From NCBI GenBank assembly GCA_002733135.1, contig NVUJ01000006.1, positions 24,280 through 88,279 on the forward strand: a stretch of 64,000 nt of DNA, given 5' to 3'. The notes under the pieces were generated by a model that made no database searches, was not told the DNA's origin, and was given only the letters and a program-made list of their open reading frames with translations. Positions 7,633-35,256 of the stretch are shown piece after piece. The DNA is from Cycloclasticus sp. GTDB taxonomy: Bacteria > Pseudomonadota > Gammaproteobacteria > Methylococcales > Cycloclasticaceae. Made by a program: the position numbers and the translations under genes. The number at the start of each line of letters is the position of its first letter. Positions within the stretch are counted from its first letter, which is position 1.

Positions 7633-8679
7633 TTATTTCAACCAGGTGTTTAATGTATTGATGAGGTCGCGCTGTGTTTTTAGGCTAGTAAACGCGCCAA
7701 TATGCCCGCCGTGAAGAAGATGCTTCGTATATAAGCTTGGCTTGATGTGCTTGCGAAGCGCCTGTGCTGAAGTAGGTGGAACGATATGATCCTTCGTTGC
7801 ATAAAGGTTTAGAACAGGGCAGTTGATCTTTTCTAGTAGTACTTTTTCTTTACCGATAAACAATTGATTATTCAGCAAACCGTTGTTTTGGTAAAAGCTT
7901 TCCATAAACTCACTGGCAGCAGCACCCGCCAAATCAGGGCCATCGCTTAGCCATTTTTCCATACGTAGGAATGTATCTAAATGCCTTTTTTTACTAACCA
8001 CATGACTGAGTTGCCGATACTTTTCCCGATTTAATTGGAAAGGTTTCAGTGTTTTAAATAACTGGCTAATTAAATGGCTCGGAATATTGCCGGCGTTATT
8101 TGTTAAAGCGGTGTGTTGGATGCCGTTTGCCCATAAGCTTAACAAGTTACTCTCTGAATGAAAGTCGACAGGGGTAACGAGGGTAATTAATTGGCGAATT
8201 TGTTTGGGTTTGAGTGCGGCATAGCACAAAGAAAAAACACCGCCTTGGCAGATGCCTAGGAGGTTTACTTTTTGGGTGTTGGCGTTGCGTTTTGTATGCT
8301 GCACACAGCGATGCATTAAGCCATTAATATAATCGTTTAGGTTAGTAAAGCAGTCACTACTATCTGGGTAGCCCCAATCAATTAGGTAGATAGGGTGTCC
8401 GTGTTCTAAGAGACGTAAGACGAGCGATCTGTCGGGTTCTAGATCAACAATATAAGGTCGGTTGACTAAGGCGTATGTGATTAATAGGGGTGTTTTTTTT
8501 TGTTTAACGCCCAAAGGCAGGTAGCGATATAACTTAAGTTTGTTTTCGGTGTAAATGAGCTCTTTTGGGGTGGTGCCAACTTCTGGTGAGTTGATGTTAT
8601 TACCGTCGCCTAATTGTTCCATCAGCAAGCTGAAGTCATTTTGCCAAATATCATCCATTGTTAAATCGTTGCTTGGCAT
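7633..8679 (-). CDS. phaC: Class III PHA synthase catalytic subunit PhaC
   Basis: Polymerises (R)-3-hydroxyacyl-CoA into polyhydroxyalkanoate as a complex with PhaE. The 348-residue alpha/beta hydrolase has the class III length (about 355). The lipase-like box is GICQGG with catalytic Cys144; the matching Asp297 lies in ATKDHIVPP and His326 in GGHIGAF. NRPYIVDLEPDRSLV and LIDWGYPD are conserved PhaC segments. It lies nine bases downstream of phaE on the same strand, an expected phaE-phaC operon, and is convergent with the DUF6489 gene with only a few bases between stops. Confidence 0.95.
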   Translation of the reverse strand: MPSNDLTMDDIWQNDFSLLMEQLGDGNNINSPEVGTTPKELIYTENKLKLYRYLPLGVKQKKTPLLITYALVNRPYIVDLEPDRSLVLRLLEHGHPIYLIDWGYPDSSDCFTNLNDYINGLMHRCVQHTKRNANTQKVNLLGICQGGVFSLCYAALKPKQIRQLITLVTPVDFHSESNLLSLWANGIQHTALTNNAGNIPSHLISQLFKTLKPFQLNREKYRQLSHVVSKKRHLDTFLRMEKWLSDGPDLAGAAASEFMESFYQNNGLLNNQLFIGKEKVLLEKINCPVLNLYATKDHIVPPTSAQALRKHIKPSLYTKHLLHGGHIGAFTSLKTQRDLINTLNTWLK

Positions 8680-22480: not shown

Positions 22481-23260
22481 ATGTCTGCGTTAACACCAAA
22501 GCAACAACTTGATGAGCTATTGCCTTATAACTTGATTACTACTAGAAAGTGGCTGGCATCTAAGGGAATGACGCGACACGCAATAGATAACGCGCTCAAA
22601 AGTAACAGGCTAAGATCGCTTGCAGTTGGAGTCTATACTCGCATGGAGTCACCACTTTCTTGGCAAAGTATAATATGTTCATTACAGTTGATGGTAGATC
22701 AAACCGTATATGTTGGTGGTCTGACTGCGTTACATCAGCAAGGCCTTGCTCAATATCTAAGTGGTACTTCAGTTACTACTATTCATCTTTATTCTGCGGG
22801 TAGGCTTCCTTCTTGGATAGAAAAAATAGAAAGCGATATACGGTTTATATGGCATAGCACTAAAACTTTATGGACAGAAAACCTGTTTACAGAGGAATCA
22901 TTCTCAAGAGAACTAGATTGGCACCAAAGTCTGCCAACTTTAAAAGTATCTTGCCCAGAAAAAGCATTTTTAGAAATGATGGCGGATGTGCCGAAGAACA
23001 TTAGTTTTGATCACGCTAATGAAATAATGCAAGGACTGACAAGTTTGTCTCCTAACAGGTTAGAAAAATTACTTAAAGGTTGTCGTAGTATAAAGTGTAA
23101 AAGGCTGTTTTTATGGTTTGCAGAAAAGCAAGGGTACGCATGGTTCAAAAGGTTGGATCTTTCAGGTGTGGACTTAGGCGTTGGTAACCGCGTTATAGCG
23201 AAAAGAGGGAAGCTTGATAAGAAATATTTAATAACGGTTCCAGAACACTTGTATGGATAG
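22481..23260 (+). CDS. abiEi: AbiEi-type antitoxin / autorepressor
   Basis: Antitoxin of the type IV AbiE toxin-antitoxin and phage-abortive system. 259 residues with an N-terminal winged-helix domain (LITTRKWLASKGMTRHAIDNALKSNRLRSLAVGVYTR) and the AbiEi body (VYVGGLTALHQQGLAQYL, the CPEKAFLEMMADVP segment). The start has AAAGGAA nine bases upstream. It overlaps abiEii by eight bases. Two inverted repeats upstream are candidate self-binding sites. Identification is by domain pattern plus its partner gene. Confidence 0.88.
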   Translation: MSALTPKQQLDELLPYNLITTRKWLASKGMTRHAIDNALKSNRLRSLAVGVYTRMESPLSWQSIICSLQLMVDQTVYVGGLTALHQQGLAQYLSGTSVTTIHLYSAGRLPSWIEKIESDIRFIWHSTKTLWTENLFTEESFSRELDWHQSLPTLKVSCPEKAFLEMMADVPKNISFDHANEIMQGLTSLSPNRLEKLLKGCRSIKCKRLFLWFAEKQGYAWFKRLDLSGVDLGVGNRVIAKRGKLDKKYLITVPEHLYG

Positions 23261-24179
23261 CGGTAATATTTATTACAAACAAGTTCAACTGCTTGTTCAG
23301 GTGCTCCCACTAGTTGCCGAAGAGAGCTGCTTTGCTTTGAAAGGGGGTACAGCTATAAACTTGTTTATACGTGAGTTACCACGGCTTTCAGTTGATATTG
23401 ATTTGGTCTATTTACCCATGCAAGATCGTAATGATGCAATAGCTGAGATTACAGCGGCATTAACGCGCATCAAACAACGTGTTCTTCAGGCGCTACTAAA
23501 ATCTAAGATAGTTGAAGCTTACAAAAATAAACCTGATGCTCTGCGATTAGTAGTTTCTCACAACAATGTACAAATAAAAATTGAACTCTCTCCCGTATTG
23601 CGTGGAACAGTATTTGAACCAGAATTGTTAAATGTTTGCACGAAAGTAGAAAATGAATTTGGTTATGCGGAGATTAACGTTGTTTCATTAGCCGATCTTT
23701 ATGCGGGCAAAATATGTGCGGCACTTGATAGACAACATCCACGTGATTTATTCGATGTTATGTGGCTGCTGAAGATGGAAGGTTTTACTGATGACGTTAG
23801 AAAAGCACTCATCGTCTACATTATTAGTCATCCTTCTCCAATAGTTGAATTACTTGATATTAGATACAAGGATATTGAGCAGATATATCAAGGTGAATTC
23901 CTGAATATGACAGAAATACCAGTATCGTTAGAAGAGCTGGAATCGACACGAGATGAATTAACTGAGCTTATCAGAACAACACTATCAGATGATGAAAAAC
24001 AGTTTTTGCTTTCATTTAAAAATATGGCTCCTCAATGGGGTTTATTAGGGCTTGAGGGCATTGAAAACCTGCCAGCCGTAAAATGGAAGCTGATAAACCT
24101 GCATAATATGTCCAAGGGTAAACATAAAGCGGCATACGAAAAGTTAGAACGTTGTTTATTAACAGGGAGTAATAACTAA
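23253..24179 (+). CDS. abiEii: AbiEii-type nucleotidyltransferase toxin
   Basis: Toxin of the AbiE pair, a nucleotidyltransferase-fold protein (DUF1814); related toxins modify tRNA acceptor ends or other nucleotides. 308 residues. Motif I FALKGGTAINLF with Gly31-Gly32 precedes the metal-binding Asp48 and Asp50 in LSVDIDLVYLP; DLYAGKICAALDRQHPRDLFDV is the second conserved block. All expected catalytic residues are present. It overlaps abiEi upstream, and its stop overlaps the hsdR start (TAATG), linking this toxin to a restriction system. Confidence 0.9.
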   Translation: MDSGNIYYKQVQLLVQVLPLVAEESCFALKGGTAINLFIRELPRLSVDIDLVYLPMQDRNDAIAEITAALTRIKQRVLQALLKSKIVEAYKNKPDALRLVVSHNNVQIKIELSPVLRGTVFEPELLNVCTKVENEFGYAEINVVSLADLYAGKICAALDRQHPRDLFDVMWLLKMEGFTDDVRKALIVYIISHPSPIVELLDIRYKDIEQIYQGEFLNMTEIPVSLEELESTRDELTELIRTTLSDDEKQFLLSFKNMAPQWGLLGLEGIENLPAVKWKLINLHNMSKGKHKAAYEKLERCLLTGSNN

Positions 24180-26560
24180 TGACATCTAAAAAAGATCTAT
24201 CTGAGAGGGATATTTGCACAAAATATATCCAGCCAGCACTAGTAAAAGCAGGCTGGGATACGCTCACTCAAATTCGTGAAGAAGTCTCTTTTACTGATGG
24301 GCGCATCTACGTTAAAGGCAACCTAACAAGCCGTGGCAAGCAAAAACGAGCGGATTATATTCTCTATTACAAACCCAATATTCCTATTGCCATTATTGAA
24401 GCTAAAAGCAATAAGCTCTCCGTGAATGCAGGCATACAGCAAGGTTTAAACTATGCTGAGATATTGGATATTCCATCCGTCTACAGCAGCAATGGTGATG
24501 GTTTTTATGAGCATGATCGCACTTGCACCGATGGTGAAATTGAAAAAGAATTCTCACTCGATGAATTCCCATCGCCAGAGGTATTGTGGCAACGCTATAA
24601 AAAATACAAAGGTATCGAAACACCAGAACAAGAGCGTATTTCTTCACAAGATTATTTCTTTGATGGTACAGATAGAAAACCGCGATACTATCAACAAATA
24701 GCCATTAACCGTGCAGTAGAAGCTATTGCAAAAGGGCAAGGACGTCTATTACTAACGATGGCAACAGGCACAGGTAAAACCTACACCGCCTTTCAGATCA
24801 TTCATCGTCTATGGAAAAGTAAGACTAAAAAACGCATCCTGTTTTTAGCGGATAGAAATGCCTTAATTGATCAAACAAAACGCGGTGATTTTCGTCATTT
24901 TAAAGACAAAATGACTGTTATCAAGAATAAGAACATTGATAAATCTTATGAAATTTATCTCGCCCTTTACCAGGGGCTAACCAACTATGATGAAGACAAA
25001 GATGCCTATCGTAAATTCAGCCCAGATTTCTTTGATCTCATCGTGATTGATGAGTGCCATCGTGGGAGTGCATCAGAAGACAGCGCATGGCGTGAAATTC
25101 TAAACTATTTTGGCAATGCCACGCATATTGGCCTAACCGCCACCCCTAAAGAAACAGAAACCATTTCAAGCACCGATTATTTCGGTGACCCTATCTATAC
25201 CTACTCACTAAAACAAGGCATACAAGACGGGTTCTTAGCGCCCTATAAAGTGCTAAGAATTGGTTTGAATGTCGATTTGGAAGGCTGGCGACCAGAACGA
25301 GGTAAAACAGACAAGGAAGGCCAGTTAGTTGATGACCGCATCTATAATCGTAAAGATTTTGATAAAAACCTCATCATAGATGAACGAACCCAAACCGTAG
25401 CCAGAAAAGTTACCGAATACCTCAAGAAAACCAACCGTTTTGATAAAACCATCATCTTCTGCACAGATATTGACCATGCCCAACGCATGAGAAGCGCCAT
25501 AGCCAATGAAAATAGCGATTTAATGGCCATCAACAGCAAATTTGTTATGCAAATTACAGGCGACAACGAAGAAGGCAAGCGAGAGCTAGACAACTTTACT
25601 AATCCCGAAGAAAAACACCCCGTAGTCGCCACCACTTCAAAATTAATGACCACAGGCATTGATGCACAAACCTGCAAAATTATTGTGCTCGATAGCAACA
25701 TCGCCTCCATGACAGAGTTCAAGCAAATCATCGGTCGCGGCACACGAATCAACGAAGAGTTTGGCAAATCATTCTTCACCATAATGGATTTTCGTAATGT
25801 AACCGACCTTTTCGCCGATCCTGATTTTGATGGCGACCCGGTAAGAGTAAAAGACATTGCTGAAGATGATGAAATCGAATCACCCGAAGATGAATTAGAA
25901 ACAGGCGACCCCATTATTGATGATGACGGTGAAGAAATCACCTTTGATCCGCCAGAACCACCGGAAATTATCGGTGGTGGCGATATTATCAGCGAGCCAA
26001 AAGCAAAGTATTACGTCAATGGTGTCAATGTTGCCATCCTCAATGAGCGCATTCAATATATGGATGGCAACGGAAAGTTGATTACAGGAAGTTTAAAAGA
26101 CTACACCAAACAGAAAGTGCGAGAGCAGTACCAATCATTAGATGACTTTATCAATAAATGGAATAACGCCGATAAAAAACAAGCGATTATTGATGAACTA
26201 ACAGAACAAGGCATTATCTTTGAAAACCTAAAAGAAGCGATCAGTAAGGATATGGACATCTTCGACCTCATCTGCCACACCGCCTTTGACCAACCGCCAC
26301 TTACTAGAGCAGAGCGCGTAAACAACGTCAAAAAACGAGACTACTTCACCCAATATGGCGAACAAGCCCGCAAAGTATTGGAAGCCCTGCTTGAAAAATA
26401 CGCCGATGAAGGCATAGAAAATATAGAAGACATAAAAATACTCAAAGTAAACCCATTTGATGACTTTGGTACACCGATGGAAATTATCAGCTTGTTTGGT
26501 GGTAAGAAACAATATCTTCAGGCTATTACTGAACTTGAAATGGAAATTTATGCAGCATAG
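24179..26560 (+). CDS. hsdR: Type I restriction endonuclease subunit R (EcoEI family)
   Basis: Motor and nuclease subunit of a type I restriction-modification complex: translocates DNA using ATP and cuts at a distance from unmethylated sites. 793 residues, typical of EcoEI-type HsdR. N-terminal PD-(D/E)XK nuclease with Asp59 and Glu74-x-Lys76 (RADYILYY, IAIIEAKS); Walker A ATGTGKT at 195-201; DECH at 291-294; LTATP motif III; helicase motif VI near IGRGTRIN; then an acidic linker and EcoEI-R C-terminal domain. It begins inside the abiEii stop. Codons are visibly richer in C-ending forms than in flanking backbone genes, suggesting transfer. Confidence 0.95.
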   Translation: MTSKKDLSERDICTKYIQPALVKAGWDTLTQIREEVSFTDGRIYVKGNLTSRGKQKRADYILYYKPNIPIAIIEAKSNKLSVNAGIQQGLNYAEILDIPSVYSSNGDGFYEHDRTCTDGEIEKEFSLDEFPSPEVLWQRYKKYKGIETPEQERISSQDYFFDGTDRKPRYYQQIAINRAVEAIAKGQGRLLLTMATGTGKTYTAFQIIHRLWKSKTKKRILFLADRNALIDQTKRGDFRHFKDKMTVIKNKNIDKSYEIYLALYQGLTNYDEDKDAYRKFSPDFFDLIVIDECHRGSASEDSAWREILNYFGNATHIGLTATPKETETISSTDYFGDPIYTYSLKQGIQDGFLAPYKVLRIGLNVDLEGWRPERGKTDKEGQLVDDRIYNRKDFDKNLIIDERTQTVARKVTEYLKKTNRFDKTIIFCTDIDHAQRMRSAIANENSDLMAINSKFVMQITGDNEEGKRELDNFTNPEEKHPVVATTSKLMTTGIDAQTCKIIVLDSNIASMTEFKQIIGRGTRINEEFGKSFFTIMDFRNVTDLFADPDFDGDPVRVKDIAEDDEIESPEDELETGDPIIDDDGEEITFDPPEPPEIIGGGDIISEPKAKYYVNGVNVAILNERIQYMDGNGKLITGSLKDYTKQKVREQYQSLDDFINKWNNADKKQAIIDELTEQGIIFENLKEAISKDMDIFDLICHTAFDQPPLTRAERVNNVKKRDYFTQYGEQARKVLEALLEKYADEGIENIEDIKILKVNPFDDFGTPMEIISLFGGKKQYLQAITELEMEIYAA

Positions 26561-26566
26561 TAAAAG

Positions 26567-28798
26567 ATGATTACAAAAATAACTAAAATTAAAAACCTTG
26601 GCTTATTTAATGATTACTCTGCGGATGCGGCTCTCCTAGACTTTAAGAAATTCAACCTTCTTTATGGGTGGAATGGAACAGGTAAAACAACGTTGTCTGA
26701 GTTGTTTACAGCGTTTAATGATGGGGCTCTGAAGGATTATCCCAGCCTTGAATACCAATTTAAAGCTGATGGTCAAACTTATTCTCAAAACACACCGTAT
26801 GACAAAAACATACGTGTATTTAATCAAAAGTATATAGCTGAAAATGTTGATGTCATTTCAGGAAGCGCAAAATCAATTTTTATTCTCGGAAAAGAGAATA
26901 AAGACTTAATCGAAGTTATCAAACAAGATGAAAAAATATTAAATGGAGATCCAGAAAAAGAAGGTGATTTAGGGAAAATAAAAGAATTATTCTCAAAAGA
27001 GCAAGAGTTAAAGACGAAAGAAAAAGAAAAAAACACAAAATTTACAGACGTTGCAAGAATCATCAGCGCCAACACTAGTGGTGTTTCTGCAAGAAATTAT
27101 AATAAAGGAAATGCTGAGAGGGCTTTTAATCAACTAAAGAATACGTCCCTGTTATCTAAAGAGGAAATTCAGCAAAATTCTACAACCTTAAAACAACAAC
27201 AGAAATCCACACTGACTCTAATTAATACCGATATAACCAAAAATATTGAGCAGATTATTTTGGACTCAAGATCTGTTCTAGAAAAAACTGTTGAAACCGT
27301 AATAATTGAGAGACTGAAAGAGCACGCCGATATTTCCCTATGGGTCGAAAATGGCATTAAATTACACAAAGAAAAAGAATCGACTACTTGTGAATTTTGT
27401 AATCAGCCATTACCTGAAAGTAGAATCCCTGACTTGCTATCTTATTTTAATGATGCTGATAAGGCACTTAAAACGGAGATAGACATATTACTTGATAAAA
27501 TTAGACAGCTTTATTCGTCAATAGATAAACTAAGTATTTTAGATAAAGCAAACCTCTATGATGAGTTTCAAATCTCTTATGAAGCAGCGATAAAAGAGGT
27601 AAATCATCATAAAACAGATCTATTATCAAAAGTTGAAGATCTAGGTAAAAAAGTTAAGGACAAAAAACAGCATACGACTGAAAAATTGACACTAACAATT
27701 AGTATTGATGACTCTGTATTTCTTGATGCAATGATTACTGCAAATTCATTTATCACTGCTTGTAATGCAAAAACTAATAGTTTTACTAAAACTAAGGCTG
27801 TCGCAGAGAAAAAATTAGAGAATCATTATTTAAGTGAGATTCATGATGATATAGAAAAGCTTACAAAACTAATTTCCAGTTTAGAAACTGACATTCAACA
27901 TCTCAACAGTGGAAATCCAGATAAAGATGATGAGGTAGGAATTCAGAGTATTCAAGATAGAATTGTGGAAAACAAAACTAAAGTATCTGCCTCTGGCACT
28001 GCATGCGATGAGATCAATAAACAGCTACAAACATTCTTAGGGAGAAACGAACTTTCTTTTGAAGTTGTAGAAGAAGGTTACATAATTAAGCGAAAAGGGA
28101 AGCCTGCCAAAAACTTAAGTGAAGGTGAAAAAACAGCTATTGCCTTTGTGTACTTCACTATTCATTTACAAGATCAGGATTTTGATATTCAAAATGGCAT
28201 TATAGTCATTGATGATCCAATTTCCAGTATGGACTCTAACTCAATATTCCAGGCATTTTCTTTCCTAAAGAATGCGGTGAAAGGTGCTCAACAAATTTTT
28301 ATACTCACCCATAATTTTGATTTTCTGAAACTAATTCTAGGTTGGCTAAAACGAATGCCGAGTAAGTTTTATATGATCAAAAACAGTTATAACGAAAGTA
28401 ATGATAGAGTTGCTCGGATAGAACCACTAGATAAACTTTTAACTAGCTACAATAGTGAATATCAGTATTTATTTAACTTACTGTCTAATTTCAGTTCGGA
28501 CGGTACTATTGCATCCGTCTACCACATCCCTAATATTGCCAGAAAAACACTTGAGTACTTTTTAATGATCATGATTCCTAATAGTGACAAAATGTTTTCT
28601 AAAATGGAGCAATTAGATTTTGATGAAACTAAAAAGACGGCTATTTATAAATTCACAAATGATCAATCACATATAACTGGGGGGGGATTTGATCCATCAC
28701 TAGTACCTGAATGCCAGAATAATGTGAAATATTTGCTAGAAATGATCGAAAAACTATTTCCTGCACACTATAAAATTCTAATGGAATGCAATCAATGA
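26567..28798 (+). CDS. AAA_13 family ATPase related to PrrC/RloC, candidate anticodon nuclease
   Basis: 743 residues. ABC/Rad50-like ATPase head: Walker A GWNGTGKTT at 34-42, signature LSEGEK at 517-522, Walker B IIVIDDPISSMD at 545-556, H-loop THNFDF at 581-586. Between them are long coiled-coil stretches with a Cys275-x2-Cys278 pair (TTCEFCNQPLP), recalling the RloC zinc hook. The C-terminal part has Arg659-x3-Glu663 and His702 (ARKTLEYFL, TNDQSH), laid out like the Arg-Glu-His triad of PrrC/RloC tRNA nucleases. Such nucleases are typically encoded inside hsd loci, as here between hsdR and hsdM. Nuclease activity is inferred; a DNA-sensing ATPase without tRNase activity is the alternative. 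Visibly A+T-rich. Confidence 0.72.
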   Translation: MITKITKIKNLGLFNDYSADAALLDFKKFNLLYGWNGTGKTTLSELFTAFNDGALKDYPSLEYQFKADGQTYSQNTPYDKNIRVFNQKYIAENVDVISGSAKSIFILGKENKDLIEVIKQDEKILNGDPEKEGDLGKIKELFSKEQELKTKEKEKNTKFTDVARIISANTSGVSARNYNKGNAERAFNQLKNTSLLSKEEIQQNSTTLKQQQKSTLTLINTDITKNIEQIILDSRSVLEKTVETVIIERLKEHADISLWVENGIKLHKEKESTTCEFCNQPLPESRIPDLLSYFNDADKALKTEIDILLDKIRQLYSSIDKLSILDKANLYDEFQISYEAAIKEVNHHKTDLLSKVEDLGKKVKDKKQHTTEKLTLTISIDDSVFLDAMITANSFITACNAKTNSFTKTKAVAEKKLENHYLSEIHDDIEKLTKLISSLETDIQHLNSGNPDKDDEVGIQSIQDRIVENKTKVSASGTACDEINKQLQTFLGRNELSFEVVEEGYIIKRKGKPAKNLSEGEKTAIAFVYFTIHLQDQDFDIQNGIIVIDDPISSMDSNSIFQAFSFLKNAVKGAQQIFILTHNFDFLKLILGWLKRMPSKFYMIKNSYNESNDRVARIEPLDKLLTSYNSEYQYLFNLLSNFSSDGTIASVYHIPNIARKTLEYFLMIMIPNSDKMFSKMEQLDFDETKKTAIYKFTNDQSHITGGGFDPSLVPECQNNVKYLLEMIEKLFPAHYKILMECNQ

Positions 28799-28850
28799 TC
28801 AATCACAGCGACATCACAAGAGCAAAACACAAGCCAATGAGCCAAAACTA

Positions 28851-29825
28851 ATGCCCTACAACCCACCCTACACAATAACTCCTAAAATCCTATCACTGGT
28901 TGCACAAATCAGTGAGGCAGTTGCGGGTGCTAATCTGCTTGAAATTCAAAACTCGCCACAGCTTCGTAAGCAAAACCGCGTTAAGACGATTACAGGTACG
29001 TTGGCGATTGAGGGGAATACGCTTAGTTTAGATCAGGTATCGGCGATTATTGAGGGTAAGCCTGTTCGTGGCTCGCAAAGGGAGATTGCTGAGGTGCGAG
29101 GAGCGATTAAAGCTTATGAAGCCTTGACGCAGTATCAGGCGCATAACATGGATGATTTGCTGGATGCCCATCAAAAAATGATGGAAGAGGTTTTGCCTGA
29201 TGCGGGGCGTTTTCGACGCGGTAATGTCGGTATTCATAAAGGCGATAAAGTGGTTCATGTTGCACCACAGGCTGATCGTGTTCAATTTTTAATGAATGAT
29301 TTGCTGAACTGGCTGAAACGTACCGATGATCACCCTTTAATACGTAGTTGCGTTTTTCATTATGAGTTTGAATTTATTCATCCCTTTAGTGATGGTAATG
29401 GCAGAATGGGGCGGCTTTGGCAGACGTTGATTTTAGGCCAATGGCGACCACTGTTTTATTCTTTACCAATTGAAAATAGCATTAAGAATAACCAACAAGC
29501 CTATTATAATGCGCTCGCCAGTGCTGATGATAAAGCGGACAGCACGGTATTTATCGAATTTATGCTGGAGATTATTTTAGATAGCATCAATGCCAGCGAC
29601 CCAGTAGACGACCCAGTAGACGACCCAGTTGAAAAGCTCTTATCTGTAATGGGCGAAGGCTATTTAAGCAGTGCCCAAATCATGGCGAAAGTAGGGTTGT
29701 CGCATAAACCGACATTTAGAAAAAACTACCTGCTTCCTGCCTTAAAACAAGGGCTAATAAAAATGAGCCACCCTGACACACCCAATAGCCCAAAACAAAA
29801 ATACACCAAGGAAAACATTAAATGA
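28851..29825 (+). CDS. Fic family protein (first copy), adenylyltransferase fold
   Basis: Fic-domain enzyme of 324 residues, expected to transfer AMP or another nucleotide group to a target protein. Complete Fic motif HPFSDGNGRMGR at residues 177-188 with catalytic His177. An inhibitory helix motif TLAIEG (Thr50-x3-Glu54-Gly55) lies N-terminal, so this is a self-inhibited class II Fic. The C-terminus is a winged-helix-like region (SSAQIMAKVGLSHKPTFRKNYL), preceded by a DPVDDPVDDPVE stretch coded by 12-bp repeats (29598-29630). Its TGA overlaps the ATG of the hsdM remnant (ATGA), showing the original hsdR-ATPase-fic1-hsdM order. Confidence 0.9.
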   Translation: MPYNPPYTITPKILSLVAQISEAVAGANLLEIQNSPQLRKQNRVKTITGTLAIEGNTLSLDQVSAIIEGKPVRGSQREIAEVRGAIKAYEALTQYQAHNMDDLLDAHQKMMEEVLPDAGRFRRGNVGIHKGDKVVHVAPQADRVQFLMNDLLNWLKRTDDHPLIRSCVFHYEFEFIHPFSDGNGRMGRLWQTLILGQWRPLFYSLPIENSIKNNQQAYYNALASADDKADSTVFIEFMLEIILDSINASDPVDDPVDDPVEKLLSVMGEGYLSSAQIMAKVGLSHKPTFRKNYLLPALKQGLIKMSHPDTPNSPKQKYTKENIK

Positions 29826-29980
29826 GCAACATCAGCGGCATCGTTAAATCAGCACGAAAAATCATGCGTCAAGACATCGGAACGGGCAGTAATGAATTGT
29901 GTGTTCTTCAATTGGAGCGGACGCCGCTTTTAAACATATTCAGTCATAAAAAATTAGCATTTATTCAAAGGAGTATGTGA
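29822..29980 (+). pseudogene. Truncated duplicate of the hsdM 5' end
   Basis: Reads MSNISGIVKSARKIMRQDIG then TGSNELCVLQLERTPLLNIFSHKK and stops after 52 codons. It matches the first 40 or so residues of the full hsdM at 31216 (TGSDELRILQLGWMLFLKIFSDKD) with roughly one base in five changed. Similarity continues a few bases upstream (ACATTAA before both ATGs). It is therefore a direct repeat flanking fic2 and a fossil of an earlier fic1-hsdM junction. Confidence 0.85.
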
Positions 29981-29981
29981 A

Positions 29982-31085
29982 ATGAACCCCTATATTTCCA
30001 ACACTTTACCATTAGAAAATTTAGACTATAAAATGCTATTTGCATATGTAGGTGAAGCTAACGCTGCTCTTGCTCGTTATGATGGATTGTTACAAGGTTT
30101 AGTGAATCCAGCCATATTACTCTCACCTATTACGACACAAGAGGCGGTACTGTCTTCGAAAATTGAAGGTACACAGGCAACATTGGATGAGGTGCTAGAA
30201 CATGATGCTGGCATCCAGATGGATGAGAAAAAAACACAAGATATCCACGAGATTATTAATTACCGCAAGGCACTATCTATTGCTAGCGAAGAGCTTGAAC
30301 GCCGCTCTATGTCATTATCACTTATCAAATCTATTCATGCGGTGTTGCTTGGTAGTGTGCGTGGTAAAGACAAAACGCCGGGGGCTTTTCGCATAAAGCA
30401 AAACTGGATCGGTGCGGCTGGGTGTAAAATTGAAGAAGCGACGTTTGTTCCCGTTTCACCACTAAGCTTGCAAGCTGATTTAGATGCTTGGATAGCTTAT
30501 GTGCAATCTGAAGATATTGATTCCTTGTTACAAATGGCAGTGGTACATGCTCAATTTGAGCTTATTCACCCATTCTTAGATGGTAATGGTCGTATTGGAC
30601 GTTTGTTAATTCCGCTATTTCTTTACCAAAAGAAAAAGTTGGCCTCCCCCATGTTCTATTTAAGTGCTTATTTAGAAGCAAATCGTGATGAATATTATGC
30701 GGCATTAAATGCCATTTCTTCTAAACAAGATTGGAATGGCTGGATTGTTTTCTTTCTTAAAGGAATAGCACTGCAAGCAGATGACAATGCGGTGAAAGTA
30801 AGGGCTATTCAGTCATTATATGATGATATGAAACAGCATATTGTTGATATTACGCATTCACAATATTCGATTAAGATCCTTGATGCGTTATTCACTAGGC
30901 CCATTTTTAAAACCTCCGAATTGGTGAAGCATACAGGCATCCCTAAGCAGACATTAATGCCTTTGATCAGGCAAATTCGTGAGTCCGGCTATTTAACCAT
31001 TGTGAAAGAAGCGAGAGGGAATCAGGCTGCCACCTTGGCATTTCCTGAACTTATTAATATTGCAGAAGGTAAAACCGTATTATAA
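29982..31085 (+). CDS. Fic family protein (second copy) with C-terminal winged helix
   Basis: 367 residues. N-terminal Fic_N domain with inhibitory motif SSKIEG (Ser58-x3-Glu62-Gly63), complete Fic motif HPFLDGNGRIGR at 196-207, and a C-terminal winged-helix DNA-binding region (FKTSELVKHTGIPKQTLMPLIRQI). This is the SoFic-like architecture and is clearly distinct from the first Fic. AAAGGAG lies 10-11 bases before the ATG. It is bracketed by the truncated hsdM start and the full hsdM, so it looks like a cassette inserted in the hsd operon. It may regulate its own promoter through the winged helix; not shown. Confidence 0.9.
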   Translation: MNPYISNTLPLENLDYKMLFAYVGEANAALARYDGLLQGLVNPAILLSPITTQEAVLSSKIEGTQATLDEVLEHDAGIQMDEKKTQDIHEIINYRKALSIASEELERRSMSLSLIKSIHAVLLGSVRGKDKTPGAFRIKQNWIGAAGCKIEEATFVPVSPLSLQADLDAWIAYVQSEDIDSLLQMAVVHAQFELIHPFLDGNGRIGRLLIPLFLYQKKKLASPMFYLSAYLEANRDEYYAALNAISSKQDWNGWIVFFLKGIALQADDNAVKVRAIQSLYDDMKQHIVDITHSQYSIKILDALFTRPIFKTSELVKHTGIPKQTLMPLIRQIRESGYLTIVKEARGNQAATLAFPELINIAEGKTVL

Positions 31086-31183
31086 ATTTGTGTCCGACGA
31101 ATCATACACAAATCCATTTGTGTCCGATATTACTTGTAATTTCGGACACAGTTTGATTTGTGGTCATAATCTCGGACACAAAT
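31086..31183. promoter_or_regulatory. Nested inverted repeats of TTTGTGTCCGA between fic2 and hsdM
   Basis: Two forward copies of ATTTGTGTCCGA (31086-31097 and 31116-31127) and two reverse copies (about 31141-31151 and 31172-31183) form a nested inverted arrangement. The inner pair makes a hairpin at 31119-31150: nine base pairs, a T-T mismatch, five more pairs (ATTAC/GTAAT) and a TT loop. No T run follows. The best guess is an operator or structured leader for hsdM. Confidence 0.6.
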
Positions 31184-31215
31184 ATTTTCAAGCATTAAAA
31201 ACAATGGAACATTAA

Positions 31216-32640
31216 ATGAGCAACATCAGCGGTATCGTAAAATCAGCACGAAAAATAATGCGTCAAGACATTGGAACAGGTAGTGATGAACTGCGTATTC
31301 TGCAATTGGGTTGGATGCTGTTTTTAAAAATATTCAGTGATAAAGACAAAGAGCTTGAGCTGATTCAAGATGATTACACTTCACCGATTCCTGTTGAACT
31401 GCACTGGGATGAGTGGGCAGCAAATGATGAGGGTATGACAGGTGATGAATTACTAAAATTTGTTGATCAAATACTATTCCCAACGCTGGGCAATCTTGAT
31501 CTTTCTACGGGCAATAAACGTGCGGTGCTGGTGCATGAGGTGTTTGCCAATAACTACAATTATATGAAATCGGGCATTCACCTACGCCAAGTGATTAACA
31601 AGCTCAATGAGATTGATTTTAACAACAGCAAAGACAAACATGTTTTTGGGCAGATTTATGAATCGTTTTTAAGCGAACTGCAAAGCGCAGGGACATTAGG
31701 CGAGTTTTATACCCCGCGTGCGATTACTGAATTGTTAGTCGAACTCACCAACCCACAAGCGCATGAAAAGCTATTAGACCCTGCTTGTGGTACTGGCGGC
31801 TATTTAACTGCCGCACTAGAGCATTTAAAAGCCAAAGCCACCACCGTGGCAGAGCGCGAAGCGATACAACATAACGTCACAGGTTGGGAATATAAACCAC
31901 TGCCTTATTTGCTCGGCAACACCAATTTAATTCTGCATGATATTAGCCTGCCTGATATTCGCTATGGGGATTCATTAGAACGCCCCTTATCAGAATATCG
32001 TCAAAAAGACCGCGTGGATATTATCCTCGCCAACCCACCGTTTGGTGGCGTGGTATCCAATAATAACGAAAACAACTTTCCACAAACCTACCGCACTAAA
32101 GAATCAGCTGATTTATTTTTAATCTTAATGATTCACCTGCTTAAAGACGGTGGTAGAGCCGCGATTGTATTGCCCGATGGTTCGCTCACAGGCGATGGCG
32201 TGAAACAACGCATCCGTCAAAAACTATTAGAAGACTGTAACCTACACACCATTATCCGACTGCCTAATTCGGTGTTTCAGCCCTATGCCTCAGTTGCCAC
32301 TAATTTACTGTTTTTCACCAAAGGCGAACCGACCAAAAGTGTTTGGTATTATCAGCATAAACTACCCGAAGGCTACAAAGCCTACTCTAAAACCAAACCC
32401 ATACAGCTCGCTGAATTTGATGGCTTAAAAAAATGGTGGGCGAATAGAGAAGAAAACGAACGAGCATGGCAAGTGGATATAGAAACCATTAAAGCCAATG
32501 GCTATAACCTTGATATTAAAAACCAACATCAGCCCGAAGAAGAACAGCAATATAGCAGTGGGGAATTGCTAGAACTATTGCATCAATCTTTTGCCAAAGG
32601 GGATGAACTGTTGGGGCAGTTGCGGAAGGAATTAGTTTAA
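31216..32640 (+). CDS. hsdM: Type I restriction-modification DNA adenine methyltransferase subunit M
   Basis: N6-adenine methyltransferase subunit that, with HsdS, protects host DNA and forms the core of the restriction complex. 474 residues: N-terminal HsdM helical domain, SAM-binding motif I DPACGTGG at 188-195, and catalytic motif IV NPPF at 273-276. The C-terminal region QQYSSGELLELLHQSFAKGDELL is typical of EcoEI-like HsdM. The stop overlaps the hsdS ATG (TAATG). It is separated from hsdR by three genes, unlike standard hsd operons. Confidence 0.95.
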   Translation: MSNISGIVKSARKIMRQDIGTGSDELRILQLGWMLFLKIFSDKDKELELIQDDYTSPIPVELHWDEWAANDEGMTGDELLKFVDQILFPTLGNLDLSTGNKRAVLVHEVFANNYNYMKSGIHLRQVINKLNEIDFNNSKDKHVFGQIYESFLSELQSAGTLGEFYTPRAITELLVELTNPQAHEKLLDPACGTGGYLTAALEHLKAKATTVAEREAIQHNVTGWEYKPLPYLLGNTNLILHDISLPDIRYGDSLERPLSEYRQKDRVDIILANPPFGGVVSNNNENNFPQTYRTKESADLFLILMIHLLKDGGRAAIVLPDGSLTGDGVKQRIRQKLLEDCNLHTIIRLPNSVFQPYASVATNLLFFTKGEPTKSVWYYQHKLPEGYKAYSKTKPIQLAEFDGLKKWWANREENERAWQVDIETIKANGYNLDIKNQHQPEEEQQYSSGELLELLHQSFAKGDELLGQLRKELV

Positions 32641-34739
32641 TGGGAAGGGGGCGTAAACCTAAGAGTATAAAAAAATTGGATTACAATACAGTTTTCTTTA
32701 ATTCGGTTGGTAGTTATGTCCAAAGGATTAATGATTATTTGTCTCGTCAAATAAAACCAGAACCATTATCAAGTCATATCAGAATAGCTGGTGGATTTGC
32801 GTTTAAAAGTACGGATTACTTAGAAGAAGGCGTTCCTGTTATTAGGATATCTGATTTTAGTGATGAAAAAATTGTTTTAGAAAATGTAAAATTTTACAAA
32901 GAATCTGAATCGTTAAAGAAGTATGAATTGGAATCTGGAGACATTATTATTGCCCTTACTGGAGGTACTATTGCCAAGTTGGGGATCGTTCAAGATGGTC
33001 TTGGGAAATTATATTTAAATCAGCGGGTTGGTAAGTTTGAGGTTTTAAACCCATCTGAATTCGAAAGTGAATATGTATATTGGATTGCAAGAAGTGTTCA
33101 GACGACTATTAAAGACTTGGCCTGGGGCGCTGCGATTCCAAATGTAAGTCCAAAGCAAATAGAAAAAATTAAATTCCCTATTCCAGATAGAAAAGTCCAA
33201 CGTGGGATAGTTATGTTTCTCAATGATTTAAGGAAAAATAACATTGTAGTTGGGAAGTGTTATTTTCATGCTGAAACTGAATCAGAAATTCTTTTTATAC
33301 ATAAAAGGTCATTAGACAGTGCAGGCATCGTTTCAGAATTGAGTCGCCAAAAAACCCTACTAAAAAAACTCCGTCAACAAATATTACAAGAAGCCATCGA
33401 AGGTAAACTCACCGCCGATTGGCGCGAACAAAATTCCCCTCCTGTGGAGGGGTGTCCGCAGGACGGGGTGGTTGAACCTCCTGTGGAGGGGTGTCCGCAG
33501 AGCGGGGTGATAGTCAAATCACGCAACACAAAAAACTACCTTAGCCTTCCCTACAACCCCAAACTAAAACAAAGAGGAAGAGAACTTAGAAAAGCCGGAA
33601 ATCTCTCAGAAGTTTTGTTCTGGAACCAGGTAAAAAGAAAACAGTTTTTGGGATTGGATTTTGATCGGCAAAAAATCATAGGTAATTATATCGTTGATTT
33701 TTATTGTGCCAATGTTCAGACGGTTATTGAAATTGATGGCAGTAGTCATGATGATAAACAGGAGTATGACGCTAAAAGGGATGCTTATTTGGAGGGGTTG
33801 GGGCTAACGGTTATTCATATTTTAGATGCGGATGTTAAAAATAACTTAGAGGGAGTGATATCTTGGTTACATCAGCATGAGGCTTTTGTATTAATAAATT
33901 CCCCTCCCTTGGAGGGGTGCCCGAAGGGTGGGGTGGTATCTTCCCCGAAGGGTGGGGTGGTTGAGCATATAGAAAAGAACCACCCCGACCGCTTTGCGCC
34001 CACCCCTCCAGAGGAGGGGAATTGGGAAAGTGCCAATGAACTACTAGCACGCATACAGGCAGAAAAAGCCCAACTGATTAAAGATAAAAAAATCAAAAAA
34101 CAAAAACCACTGCCACCGATTAGCGAGGAAGAAAAACCGTTTAAATTACCCGATGGGTGGGTTTGGTGTCGGTTGGGGCAAATATCAGATGTGAAAGTTG
34201 GGGCAACTCCAGCAAGAGAGAATCCTGAATATTGGAATGGCACTTTAAATTGGGTATCAAGCGGTGAGGTGGCGAATAATTATATTTTCACTACAAAAGA
34301 AACTCTTACAGAAAAGGGGGTGAATGAATCATCCGCAAAAATAAATCCCAAAGGTAGTGTGCTGGTTGCAATGATTGGACAAGGAAAGACTCGAGGTCAA
34401 ACAGCAATTTTAAATATTGATGCAGCTACAAATCAGAATGTAGCTGCAATTCGACTTCGGAAAGGAATAACATCAGAAATTATTTGGCTTTTCTTTCTGT
34501 CACGTTACGAAGTTACACGAAGTGGAGCATCAGGAGGGAATCAGCCGGCACTAAATGGCCTAAAAATTAAAAATACTATTTTTGCTCTCCCCCCACTCCA
34601 AGAACAAAAAACCATCGTAGCCAAAGTAGAAAAACTACTCACCGTATGCGATCAACTAGAAACCCAAATTACCGACAATCAAACTCACGCCGAGCAACTA
34701 ATGCAAGCGGTGTTAAAAGAGGCCTTTTCGCAGGCGTAA
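32640..34739 (+). CDS. hsdS: Type I specificity subunit HsdS carrying an in-frame DUF559 domain
   Basis: Target-recognition subunit, 699 residues where 400-500 is usual. Target-recognition domain 1 is at about 40-190, with a coiled-coil spacer at 232-262 ending EAIEGKLTADWREQN. An extra block follows at about 265-460. After it the normal HsdS resumes (ESANELLARIQAEKAQLIK, KKQKPLPPISEEEKPF), with domain 2 at about 500-650 and the final coiled coil QEQKTIVAKVEKLL. The extra block holds a complete DUF559 domain (300-412; NPKLKQRGRELRKAGNLSE, VDFYCANVQTVIEIDGSSH) whose Asp353, Glu364 and Asp366 fit a Vsr/PD-(D/E)XK fold. It is bordered by repeat-coded linkers (PPVEGCPQDGVV). No frameshift is seen, so the protein may still work. 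Alternative: a tolerated insertion that alters domain spacing. Confidence 0.93.
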   Translation: MGRGRKPKSIKKLDYNTVFFNSVGSYVQRINDYLSRQIKPEPLSSHIRIAGGFAFKSTDYLEEGVPVIRISDFSDEKIVLENVKFYKESESLKKYELESGDIIIALTGGTIAKLGIVQDGLGKLYLNQRVGKFEVLNPSEFESEYVYWIARSVQTTIKDLAWGAAIPNVSPKQIEKIKFPIPDRKVQRGIVMFLNDLRKNNIVVGKCYFHAETESEILFIHKRSLDSAGIVSELSRQKTLLKKLRQQILQEAIEGKLTADWREQNSPPVEGCPQDGVVEPPVEGCPQSGVIVKSRNTKNYLSLPYNPKLKQRGRELRKAGNLSEVLFWNQVKRKQFLGLDFDRQKIIGNYIVDFYCANVQTVIEIDGSSHDDKQEYDAKRDAYLEGLGLTVIHILDADVKNNLEGVISWLHQHEAFVLINSPPLEGCPKGGVVSSPKGGVVEHIEKNHPDRFAPTPPEEGNWESANELLARIQAEKAQLIKDKKIKKQKPLPPISEEEKPFKLPDGWVWCRLGQISDVKVGATPARENPEYWNGTLNWVSSGEVANNYIFTTKETLTEKGVNESSAKINPKGSVLVAMIGQGKTRGQTAILNIDAATNQNVAAIRLRKGITSEIIWLFFLSRYEVTRSGASGGNQPALNGLKIKNTIFALPPLQEQKTIVAKVEKLLTVCDQLETQITDNQTHAEQLMQAVLKEAFSQA
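33432..34023. mobile_element. DUF559-bearing palindromic element inserted in frame in hsdS
   Basis: The left end (33432-33473) begins AATTCCCCTCC and ends GGGGTGGTT; the right end (33978-34023) is its inverted counterpart, beginning AACCACCCC and ending GGAGGGGAATT. Each end contains its own small palindrome (CCCCTCC..GGAGGGG). Further direct copies lie inside at about 33474-33511 and 33897-33937, with a partial copy at 33940-33962. The interior encodes the DUF559 domain in the hsdS frame. I recall similar G/C-rich palindromes next to DUF559 genes in other genomes; that is memory, not a search. No target duplication is obvious. Confidence 0.72.
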
Positions 34740-34879: not shown

Positions 34880-35256
34880 TGGTGGAGGCGGCGGGAATTG
34901 AACCCGCGTCCGCAAGCACTCCGCCCTCGGCTCTACATGCTTATCCTATAACTTTTAGTTTAATTAGTGGCTACCCGATAGGCTAGGAAGACCAATAACG
35001 ATTCCGGTTAAGTTTTAGTAGATCTGCCCCGAACGAGCTTCACTACGATCTTATGAGCTATGATGCCTGAGATGATCCGAAGATCGCTGGACGCATAAGC
35101 ACGGCTCCAGTCAGACAGCAATCTCACTGTTTCTTAGGCAGCGATTGCGTAGTTGTCGTCGTTTGCAACTATAATTTTTCAGATGTTTTACGAGATTCCT
35201 GAAAGCTCGGCATGCACCTAAGGTTTTGCTACCCACGTCGAAGCCAGGTCGCCCCC
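34880..35256 (-). ncRNA. ssrA: Transfer-messenger RNA (tmRNA)
   Basis: Rescues stalled ribosomes and tags the nascent chain for proteolysis, together with SmpB. 377 nt. The 5' end GGGGGCG pairs with CGCCTCC near the 3' end (one G-U), followed by ACCA encoded in the DNA; the T arm is GCGGG-TTCAATT-CCCGC. The tag frame at 35166-35134 reads GCA AAC GAC GAC AAC TAC GCA ATC GCT GCC TAA, giving ANDDNYAIAA, one substitution type away from other gammaproteobacterial tags. Its 3' end faces the defence island, a classic integration position for islands, although no integrase is present. Confidence 0.97.

Follow-up and report, generated by a model that had tools for sequence, protein, structure and literature searches.

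The closest described counterparts of the locus analyzed here are the repetitive extragenic palindromic (REP) sequences with their REP-associated tyrosine transposases (RAYTs), the EDxHD homing nucleases, and a Vsr-like protein of the family DUF559. Within the REPs, the CGTC REPs form a large class that is said to lack a dedicated transposase (PMC3733652). As for DUF559, the Caulobacter DUF559 protein VsrA has been reported to be required for the SOS response in cells without a cytosine methyltransferase (PMC12907096), and a paper on a cyanobacterial genome places a DUF559 gene in the EDxHD homing family (PMC9403480). The subject of the present analysis is a 64,000-nt stretch of contig NVUJ01000006.1 of Cycloclasticus sp., hereafter the window, to which all coordinates refer; the assembly to which it belongs is 83% complete. 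In this window, the hsdS gene, which encodes the specificity subunit of a type I restriction-modification system, carries in frame an insert that is bounded by palindromic repeats and encodes a DUF559 domain. On balance, this insert is likely to be one copy of a mobile element with hairpin ends, which codes for a DUF559 nuclease (Vsr/EDxHD-like, of the PD-(D/E)XK fold) and can be read through in frame. The observations behind this view are the architecture of the insert, the association of palindromes with DUF559 genes, the range of host genes, the existence of empty sites, and the intact catalytic residues.

An earlier reading of the sequence alone (hereafter the original prediction) had described hsdS as one open frame of 699 codons holding an extra block of about 195 codons between inverted palindromic repeats. 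This description was borne out: hsdS (32640..34739, + strand) is a single open frame encoding 699 amino acids, and the element within it (33432..34023, + strand), which runs from AATTCCCC to GGGGAATT as delimited by its inverted repeats and by comparison with element-free HsdS, comprises 197 codons, with repeats located on both sides. A GC-rich repeat is present in three direct copies of 42 nt, starting at positions 33431, 33470 and 33896, such that two direct copies lie upstream of DUF559, while the downstream side has a direct copy, a partial one and an inverted one. The individual units were located by repeat and hairpin searches. The first 5' unit (33431..33472, + strand) is translated as SPPVEGCPQDGVV; the second (33470..33511, + strand), which starts 39 nt after the first, is translated as PPVEGCPQSGV, and the repeat peptide PPxEGCPxxGVV of the original prediction is indeed present in the translation. 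On the 3' side, a direct unit (33896..33937, + strand) is accompanied by the partial copy (33944-33961) and by the inverted terminal unit (33978..34023, - strand). The inverted repeat arms pair 33418-33460 with 33995-34037, and 33897-33919 with 34001-34023. All full copies hold the hairpin CCCCTCCNNNGGAGGGG (33436-33452 in the first 5' unit, 33901-33917 in the direct 3' unit and 34003-34019 in the terminal unit), or a near variant with 2 mismatches (33475-33491 in the second 5' unit). Single-strand folding of the 5' array was better than that of dinucleotide shuffles (z -3.2, 1 of 200 shuffles being as good), as was that of the 3' array (z -6.2, 0 of 200). With up to 2 mismatches allowed, the CCCCTCCNNNGGAGGGG hairpins were found in the assembly of the own genome only here, plus one match on another contig.

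The inserted block contains, as had been predicted, a complete DUF559 domain (residues 308-408; 33561..33863, + strand), which matched Pfam PF04480 with 99 bits against a cut-off of 20.6; no extra domain beyond it was found in the 197 codons, either by Pfam or in the predicted model. Comparison of 49 fused copies revealed 13 invariant positions (R, E, W, R, Q, D, F, E, D, G, H, D and R), and the residues E324, D353, E364, D366, H370 and D377 were invariant in all 49 rows. Therefore, the fused copies have kept the active site. The DUF559 domain in HsdS is probably an active nuclease on flexible tethers. When the DUF559 model was compared with the Protein Data Bank using Foldseek, 3hrl was the only match passing 1e-3 (E 1e-6), and it was also the only match in a sequence profile search of the same database. 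The catalytic domain of I-Bth0305I (3r3p) matched with an E-value of 2.6e-3, a probability of 1.00 and a template modelling (TM) score by target of 0.76, and Vsr (1vsr/1cw0) was weak by E-value (0.07-0.1), some mitoribosomal proteins ranking in between.

HsdS also exists without this block. The HsdS flanks of the element, when joined to each other, matched sequences in 20 of the 397 other genomes of the phylum sample (E 1e-10), and the alignments of the element-free homologues that were shown cross the join uninterrupted. Thus, DUF559 is not a constant, ancestral part of HsdS. The element-free homologues mostly read GKLVPQDPNDEPASELL at the join, the closest in form being GKGTENWRKNTKFEPANNLF of locus L197; the window reads GKLTADWREQN, followed by the element and then WESANELL. 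The join is placed between residues 264 and 462, where the central spacer helix ends and upstream of the second target recognition domain (TRD2). Both recognition domains and the coiled coils are retained, in line with the original prediction: Pfam found Methylase_S in two stretches of the product, and the structure predicted for the 699-residue protein shows both recognition domains and the spacer helices intact, with DUF559 attached by low-confidence linkers. The first recognition domain (residues about 43-199; 32766..33236, + strand) was matched by PADLOC specificity models at 43-196 and 41-199, and the central spacer helix (residues 230-253; 33327..33398, + strand) ends just 5' of the element. 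TRD2 (Pfam Methylase_S, residues 504-678) occupies 34149..34673 (+ strand). It should be noted that the model has a mean predicted local distance difference test (pLDDT) score of 80.9 and a predicted TM score of 0.54, so that the relative placing of the domains is unsure. Confidence was mostly >90 in the first recognition domain and in DUF559, 89-94 in spacer residues 231-260, and >90 in TRD2 except at about 521-570 (48-72); the repeat-coded residues 272-302 and 427-458 scored <50, as expected for disordered tethers. Because the spacer helix ends before the element begins, a changed spacer is not expected; we expect HsdS to keep working with unchanged specificity. The original prediction had likened the insert to an intein or a domain-level passenger that preserves its host. 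The latter part is supported by element-free HsdS, the predicted model and the in-frame copies elsewhere; the likeness to an intein is not, since no splicing family was among the Pfam matches at 1e-3.

A second species of the same genus (genome G006) carries the same hsdS element, and in that genome CCTCC palindromes are present only there. The element region differs from that of the window at 5 of 568 positions and the following 131-nt linker at 8 (about 94% identical); identity then breaks at TRD2 (34167), not at the edge of the element, and TRD2 itself differs. In the 101 codons of DUF559 there is one amino-acid change and not a single synonymous change. The contig concerned (C169) starts inside the 5' repeat array, and the upstream half of hsdS is thus missing from it. 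The simplest reading of these sequences is that TRD2 would have been swapped while the element stayed in place, and the case is no proof of recent movement.

The original prediction also implied that the palindromes occur elsewhere in related genomes. Besides the copy in G006, related loci combining DUF559 with palindromes were found throughout the order to which the window belongs and in many phyla. We analyzed the best 80 of at least 565 encoding relatives from a contig scan whose query included the repeat peptide; these 80 come from many phyla. A strict palindrome (stem of at least 7, loop of 3-6, a pyrimidine-rich and C-rich 5' arm, at most 300 bp from the core) was present on at least one side in 74 of the 80 and on both sides in 50. 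The same was true of free-standing DUF559 loci in the order (26 top-scoring matches of the Pfam family plus L113, which came from a separate search), of which 26 of 27 had the palindrome on at least one side and 18 of 27 on both, and of order loci whose DUF559 frame is fused, 16 of 17 of which had it on one side or both. As a control, only 1 of 540 tiles of 300 bp, taken from 20 arbitrary 8.4-kb stretches of order genomes, contained one. In addition, when the upstream flank of DUF559 was compared with the inverted downstream flank, the match exceeded that of all 100 shuffles in 53 of 77 loci (77 of 81 loci were used), versus 2 of 80 pairs of control windows. Several loci share a composite repeat unit, consisting of hairpin A, TG, a variable hairpin B and CGGGGT(G/A)GT.

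The distribution of the palindromes among genomes points in the same direction. Two or more copies of the CCCTCTCCC palindrome were found in 40 of 53 order genomes with a strong DUF559 versus 25 of 80 without (Fisher p 5e-7), a comparison that covers 133 of 151 order genomes, excludes the own genus and uses a hand-picked definition of strong (E about 1e-27 or better); families f4 and f8, taken separately, show the same trend. The exact CCCCTCCNNNGGAGGGG is present in 22 of the 29 genomes of the best-80 relative loci, and in three genomes (G557, G559 and G565) its sole two copies flank an in-frame DUF559. Inside a DUF559 frame, the distance between neighbouring palindromes is divisible by 3 in 24 of 26 cases; outside, this is so in 2 of 11. 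Two further observations concern the surroundings of such copies. The genome of locus L034 (G562) has 164 palindrome copies; in the listed part, many of them form runs with intervals of about 1.2-1.4 kb, suggestive of gene arrays with palindromes in between. At L012, L023 and L037, and at L035 as far as it is visible, a free-standing DUF559 follows a near-identical gene end, HKKGLMQQLFP, which looks hsdS-like by eye; the last codons of this gene end are supplied by the palindrome itself.

It could be argued that another enzyme, for instance a RAYT (Y1 tyrosine transposase), moves the palindromes as it would ordinary REP-like repeats, and that DUF559 is cargo trapped between two of them. REPs, intragenic REPs and RAYTs are established (PMC3733652), Y1_Tnp is present in 132 of the 151 order genomes, and palindromes do occur in frame without DUF559. 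An example of the last is a Chitinophagales hsd operon (L258), in which all 13 exact palindromes found in the genome are in frame, 2 in HsdM (by eye) and 11 in HsdR, with DUF559 between only some of them. The same palindrome-rich operon contains a RAYT-like gene, which has tblastn relatives in L024, L177 and L059; this gene (7853-8626 of that locus) carries a tandem ELHSPENAN repeat and lies between hsdS-like and hsdR genes. However, no Y1_Tnp match is present in the assembly of the own genome, and only 3 of 18 Y1-transposase loci had the palindrome in one of their 360-bp flanks, none of the 18 having it in both, compared with 26 of 27 free-standing DUF559 loci, although this count covers 18 of 30 loci (the other 12 being truncated) from top-scoring matches, which by their hairpins are probably IS200/IS605, so that true RAYTs are under-sampled. 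Moreover, the palindrome family, as judged by eye, shifts with the DUF559 lineage: CCCCTCC is found in the group of the window, CCCTCTCC in most order loci, and CCCCTTCG and others elsewhere. We therefore regard trapped cargo as unlikely.

The hosts of the in-frame copies are mainly restriction-modification proteins. A Pfam scan of the 33 best-80 relatives with frames of at least 245 aa identified such hosts in 25, namely HsdR (9), type ISP (6), Eco57I/type IIG-like (5), type III or N6/N4 methylases (3) and HsdS (2); 2 others were PheT and a radical-SAM/lipoyl-synthase-type frame, and 6 had no host family. A second scan drew on the 17 order frames outside the window and G006 that had at least 380 aa and an E-value of 1e-27 or better; it covered 16 of these, leaving out L181, the sister of L182 in the tree. 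Here, 11 of 16 hosts were DNA restriction or modification proteins (HsdS 3, HsdM 3, N6/N4 methylases 3, HsdR 1 and N6-methylase-like 1), and the remainder were methionyl-tRNA synthetase (4) and a C-terminal fusion to an AIR-synthase-type protein (1). These counts are of frames, not of independent insertions; those of the order fall into two DUF559 clades set apart by starred branches. Among the other 52 best-80 relatives, a restriction-modification gene was detected in the flank of 14, compared with 0 of 20 control stretches from other genomes, detection being by similarity to the fused hosts and to the HsdM and HsdS of the window. Two side observations may be added. Aminoacyl-tRNA synthetases, which may be a second favoured host group, include MetG, with the element in its linker (L176, L178, L179 and L180), and PheT (L062), and L074 follows an alaS-like gene end (by eye). 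Furthermore, GIY-YIG domains are present in frame in two HsdR proteins that also carry DUF559 (L008, residues 275-343; L024, residues 941-1012) and may represent another nuclease that lives in this way; they were rejected as the same element, their 240-nt flanks having no CCCCTCC palindromes.

This strong excess of restriction-modification hosts raises the question of whether restriction systems have recruited DUF559 as a functional component, that is, as a tethered nuclease or nickase that is selected for cleavage, repair or regulation, the palindromes being a by-product. The constancy of the catalytic residues in the 49 fused rows would suit this idea, as would the functional link between the Vsr-like DUF559 protein of Caulobacter and a methyltransferase (PMC12907096). 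So would the position of the inserts in HsdS, which by eye is between the central helix and TRD2 in 6 of 6 cases (the window, L009, L014, L167, L168 and L172b), two DUF559 lineages with different palindromes using one common junction. Against it stand the hosts outside restriction (MetG, PheT, the AIR-synthase-type C-terminal fusion and the lipoyl-synthase-type frame), the commonness of free-standing copies, and the existence of sister genomes without the MetG insert. In addition, palindromes alone can occupy the same site as the complete element: by eye, one palindrome-only HsdM site in L258, after YHNWR, is the site of the DUF559 element in L171, L172 and L175. Recruitment is thus, in our opinion, improbable as the main explanation.

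Empty sites and duplications bear on mobility. Within a single genus of the order, in which four genomes were searched, the MetG element is present in G047 and G078 and the site is empty in G066 and G060, where the linker reads HQQHTIQPIADTITIDDFAK; the flanks of occupied and empty sites are 84-89% identical in DNA. Between G047 and G078, the DUF559 part has a nonsynonymous rate (dN) of 0.050 and a synonymous rate (dS) of 0.288, the values for the N-terminal part of MetG being 0.026 and 0.316. When 700-bp flanks were searched for direct matches scoring at least 36, exact duplications of 54 bp (L074) and of about 60 bp (L077) were found, adjoining the hairpin ends on the outer side; other matches include the palindromes. 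A viral or plasmid origin was considered and rejected, as matches were limited to 2 of 50,697 phage and 36 of 72,556 plasmid records, all with <60% identity; of the 64 relatives on viral contigs, one was close (61%) and the others were at 50% or less.

There are also observations that weigh against a mobile element driven by its nuclease. With regard to movement, none was observed, and the single copy in the own genome gives no sign of current activity there. Long clean duplications outside the palindromes are confined to 2 of the 80 loci, and no target duplication of about 36 bp or more was seen at the window copy or at the MetG copies; about 25 bp of the MetG linker also differ between occupied and empty sites. 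With regard to the link between the nuclease and the palindromes, the latter are common in some genomes without a strong DUF559 (the 25 of 80 mentioned above; 142 copies in G074), and there is the RAYT-like gene among the palindromes of the Chitinophagales operon. With regard to the counts, the in-frame cases are partly dependent, the cores of L022 and L025 being identical, and the nine HsdR cases of the best-80 set all fall in the same region of HsdR and may have a common origin. On the DUF559 tree (125 cores), at least 33 changes of host label are required, which speaks for the mobile element, but the tree has few columns (109), 51 of its 121 inner branches are open, and counting the starred branches alone leaves only 1 to 3 forced changes for each label. 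Finally, the repeat peptide in the best-80 query biases the palindrome and fusion rates upward, and the control stretches came from arbitrary places in order genomes, unmatched to the loci. Mere decay, in which a chance insertion into a dispensable hsdS stayed open by luck without lasting role or mobility, would agree with the single copy in the genome, but is very improbable given that hsdR, hsdM and hsdS are all open, that the insert is kept in the second species alongside a different TRD2 without synonymous changes in DUF559, and that there are many parallel in-frame cases.

Our preferred explanation, a mobile hairpin-ended element, can be worked out as follows. The element is probably a translated passenger of an undescribed hairpin-ended class, which its own nuclease would mobilise and restriction operons would spread; the mobilising role of DUF559 is what we infer. 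The DUF559 nuclease would recognise its own hairpin ends and cut or nick them, which would start insertion of the element or of the palindromes alone. Copies landing in frame in flexible linkers would survive, the host protein continuing to work with a tethered extra domain. Restriction operons often move between genomes. They may carry copies across phyla, which would be the reason why copies are frequent in restriction genes. The copy in the window is probably a resident passenger, because no other DUF559 and no further palindrome copy were found in its genome, which has one DUF559 match. A wider proposal, which we put forward tentatively and would not call probable, is that pyrimidine-rich, two-hairpin palindromes make up a large superfamily, as yet undescribed, which DUF559 proteins mobilise. 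As a transposon class, these would have an EDxHD/Vsr-like nuclease in place of a transposase, the ability to make target duplications of about 50-60 bp, and ends and array periods compatible with the reading frame, and would travel between phyla inside restriction-modification genes, giving rise to nuclease-fused specificity, modification and restriction subunits.

The surroundings of hsdS are those of a type I system. Besides the two recognition domains and the spacer helices of its product, the partner methyltransferase gene hsdM (31216..32640, + strand; Pfam and PADLOC) and the restriction gene hsdR (24179..26560, + strand; 793 aa, open frame; PADLOC) are nearby. They are part of a compact defence island at 22481-34739 that comprises AbiEi/AbiEii, hsdR, an AAA_13 gene, two Fic-type genes, hsdM and hsdS. 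The AAA_13 gene corresponds to PADLOC PDC-S06, with distant similarity to PrrC, and the two Fic-type genes are of the SoFic type. A tmRNA gene (34880-35256) adjoins the end of the island.

If our explanation is correct, it would have several consequences. It would assign a likely function to a very widespread family of "unknown function", and one class of palindromic repeats in bacteria would gain a candidate enzyme, the palindromes here not being of the CGTC class as far as tested: one form of that motif, with a stem starting in AT, was present in 0 of the 27 order DUF559 loci. It would also mean that a mobile element lives inside defence proteins without inactivating them, that endonuclease fusions of HsdS, HsdR or Mod may be element insertions and not designed enzymes, and that such insertions mark the spots at which restriction subunits tolerate extra domains.

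How does the element compare with known systems? REPs, RAYTs, EDxHD homing nucleases and a Vsr-like DUF559 protein have all been described; their combination was not found in the open-licence literature searched, where the titles and starts of abstracts of the papers listed contained no link of DUF559, COG2852 or PF04480 to palindromic repeats or to in-frame insertion into restriction genes. Compared with HsdS of the EcoEI type, a type name taken from the original prediction, the protein of the window shares two recognition domains and spacer helices, but has 197 extra codons in the linker before TRD2. VsrA belongs to the same Pfam family as the domain of the element, and its residues E73, D102, D115 and H119 have the same spacing as E324, D353, D366 and H370 of the window (PMC12907096); however, the available text of that report describes VsrA as Vsr-like, does not contain the word "palindrom" and mentions no fusion to a restriction protein. 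The EDxHD homing endonucleases, such as I-Bth0305I, have a catalytic-domain fold in common with the DUF559 of the window. On the other hand, the element has no intron or intein, possesses hairpin ends and is found in many different host genes, and no long DNA-binding tail of the kind described for that family (PMC3943268) was found in its 197 codons. Rickettsia palindromic elements and other intragenic repeats are likewise palindromic, in frame and translated, but encode stretches of about 20 to 30 residues, or a little longer (PMC3733652), whereas the element of the window carries a complete nuclease domain. The likeness to REPtrons is that small inverted palindromes flank one DNA-cutting gene and that palindrome-only copies exist elsewhere (PMC3733652). 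The difference is that the nuclease here is PD-(D/E)XK-like and not an HUH/tyrosine transposase, no Y1 HUH tyrosine transposase gene being detected in the element by Pfam, and that gene-bearing, in-frame coding copies are frequent. We thus place the element with the small palindrome-bounded mobile elements that carry a DNA-cutting gene, and there is a fair chance that it forms its own class.

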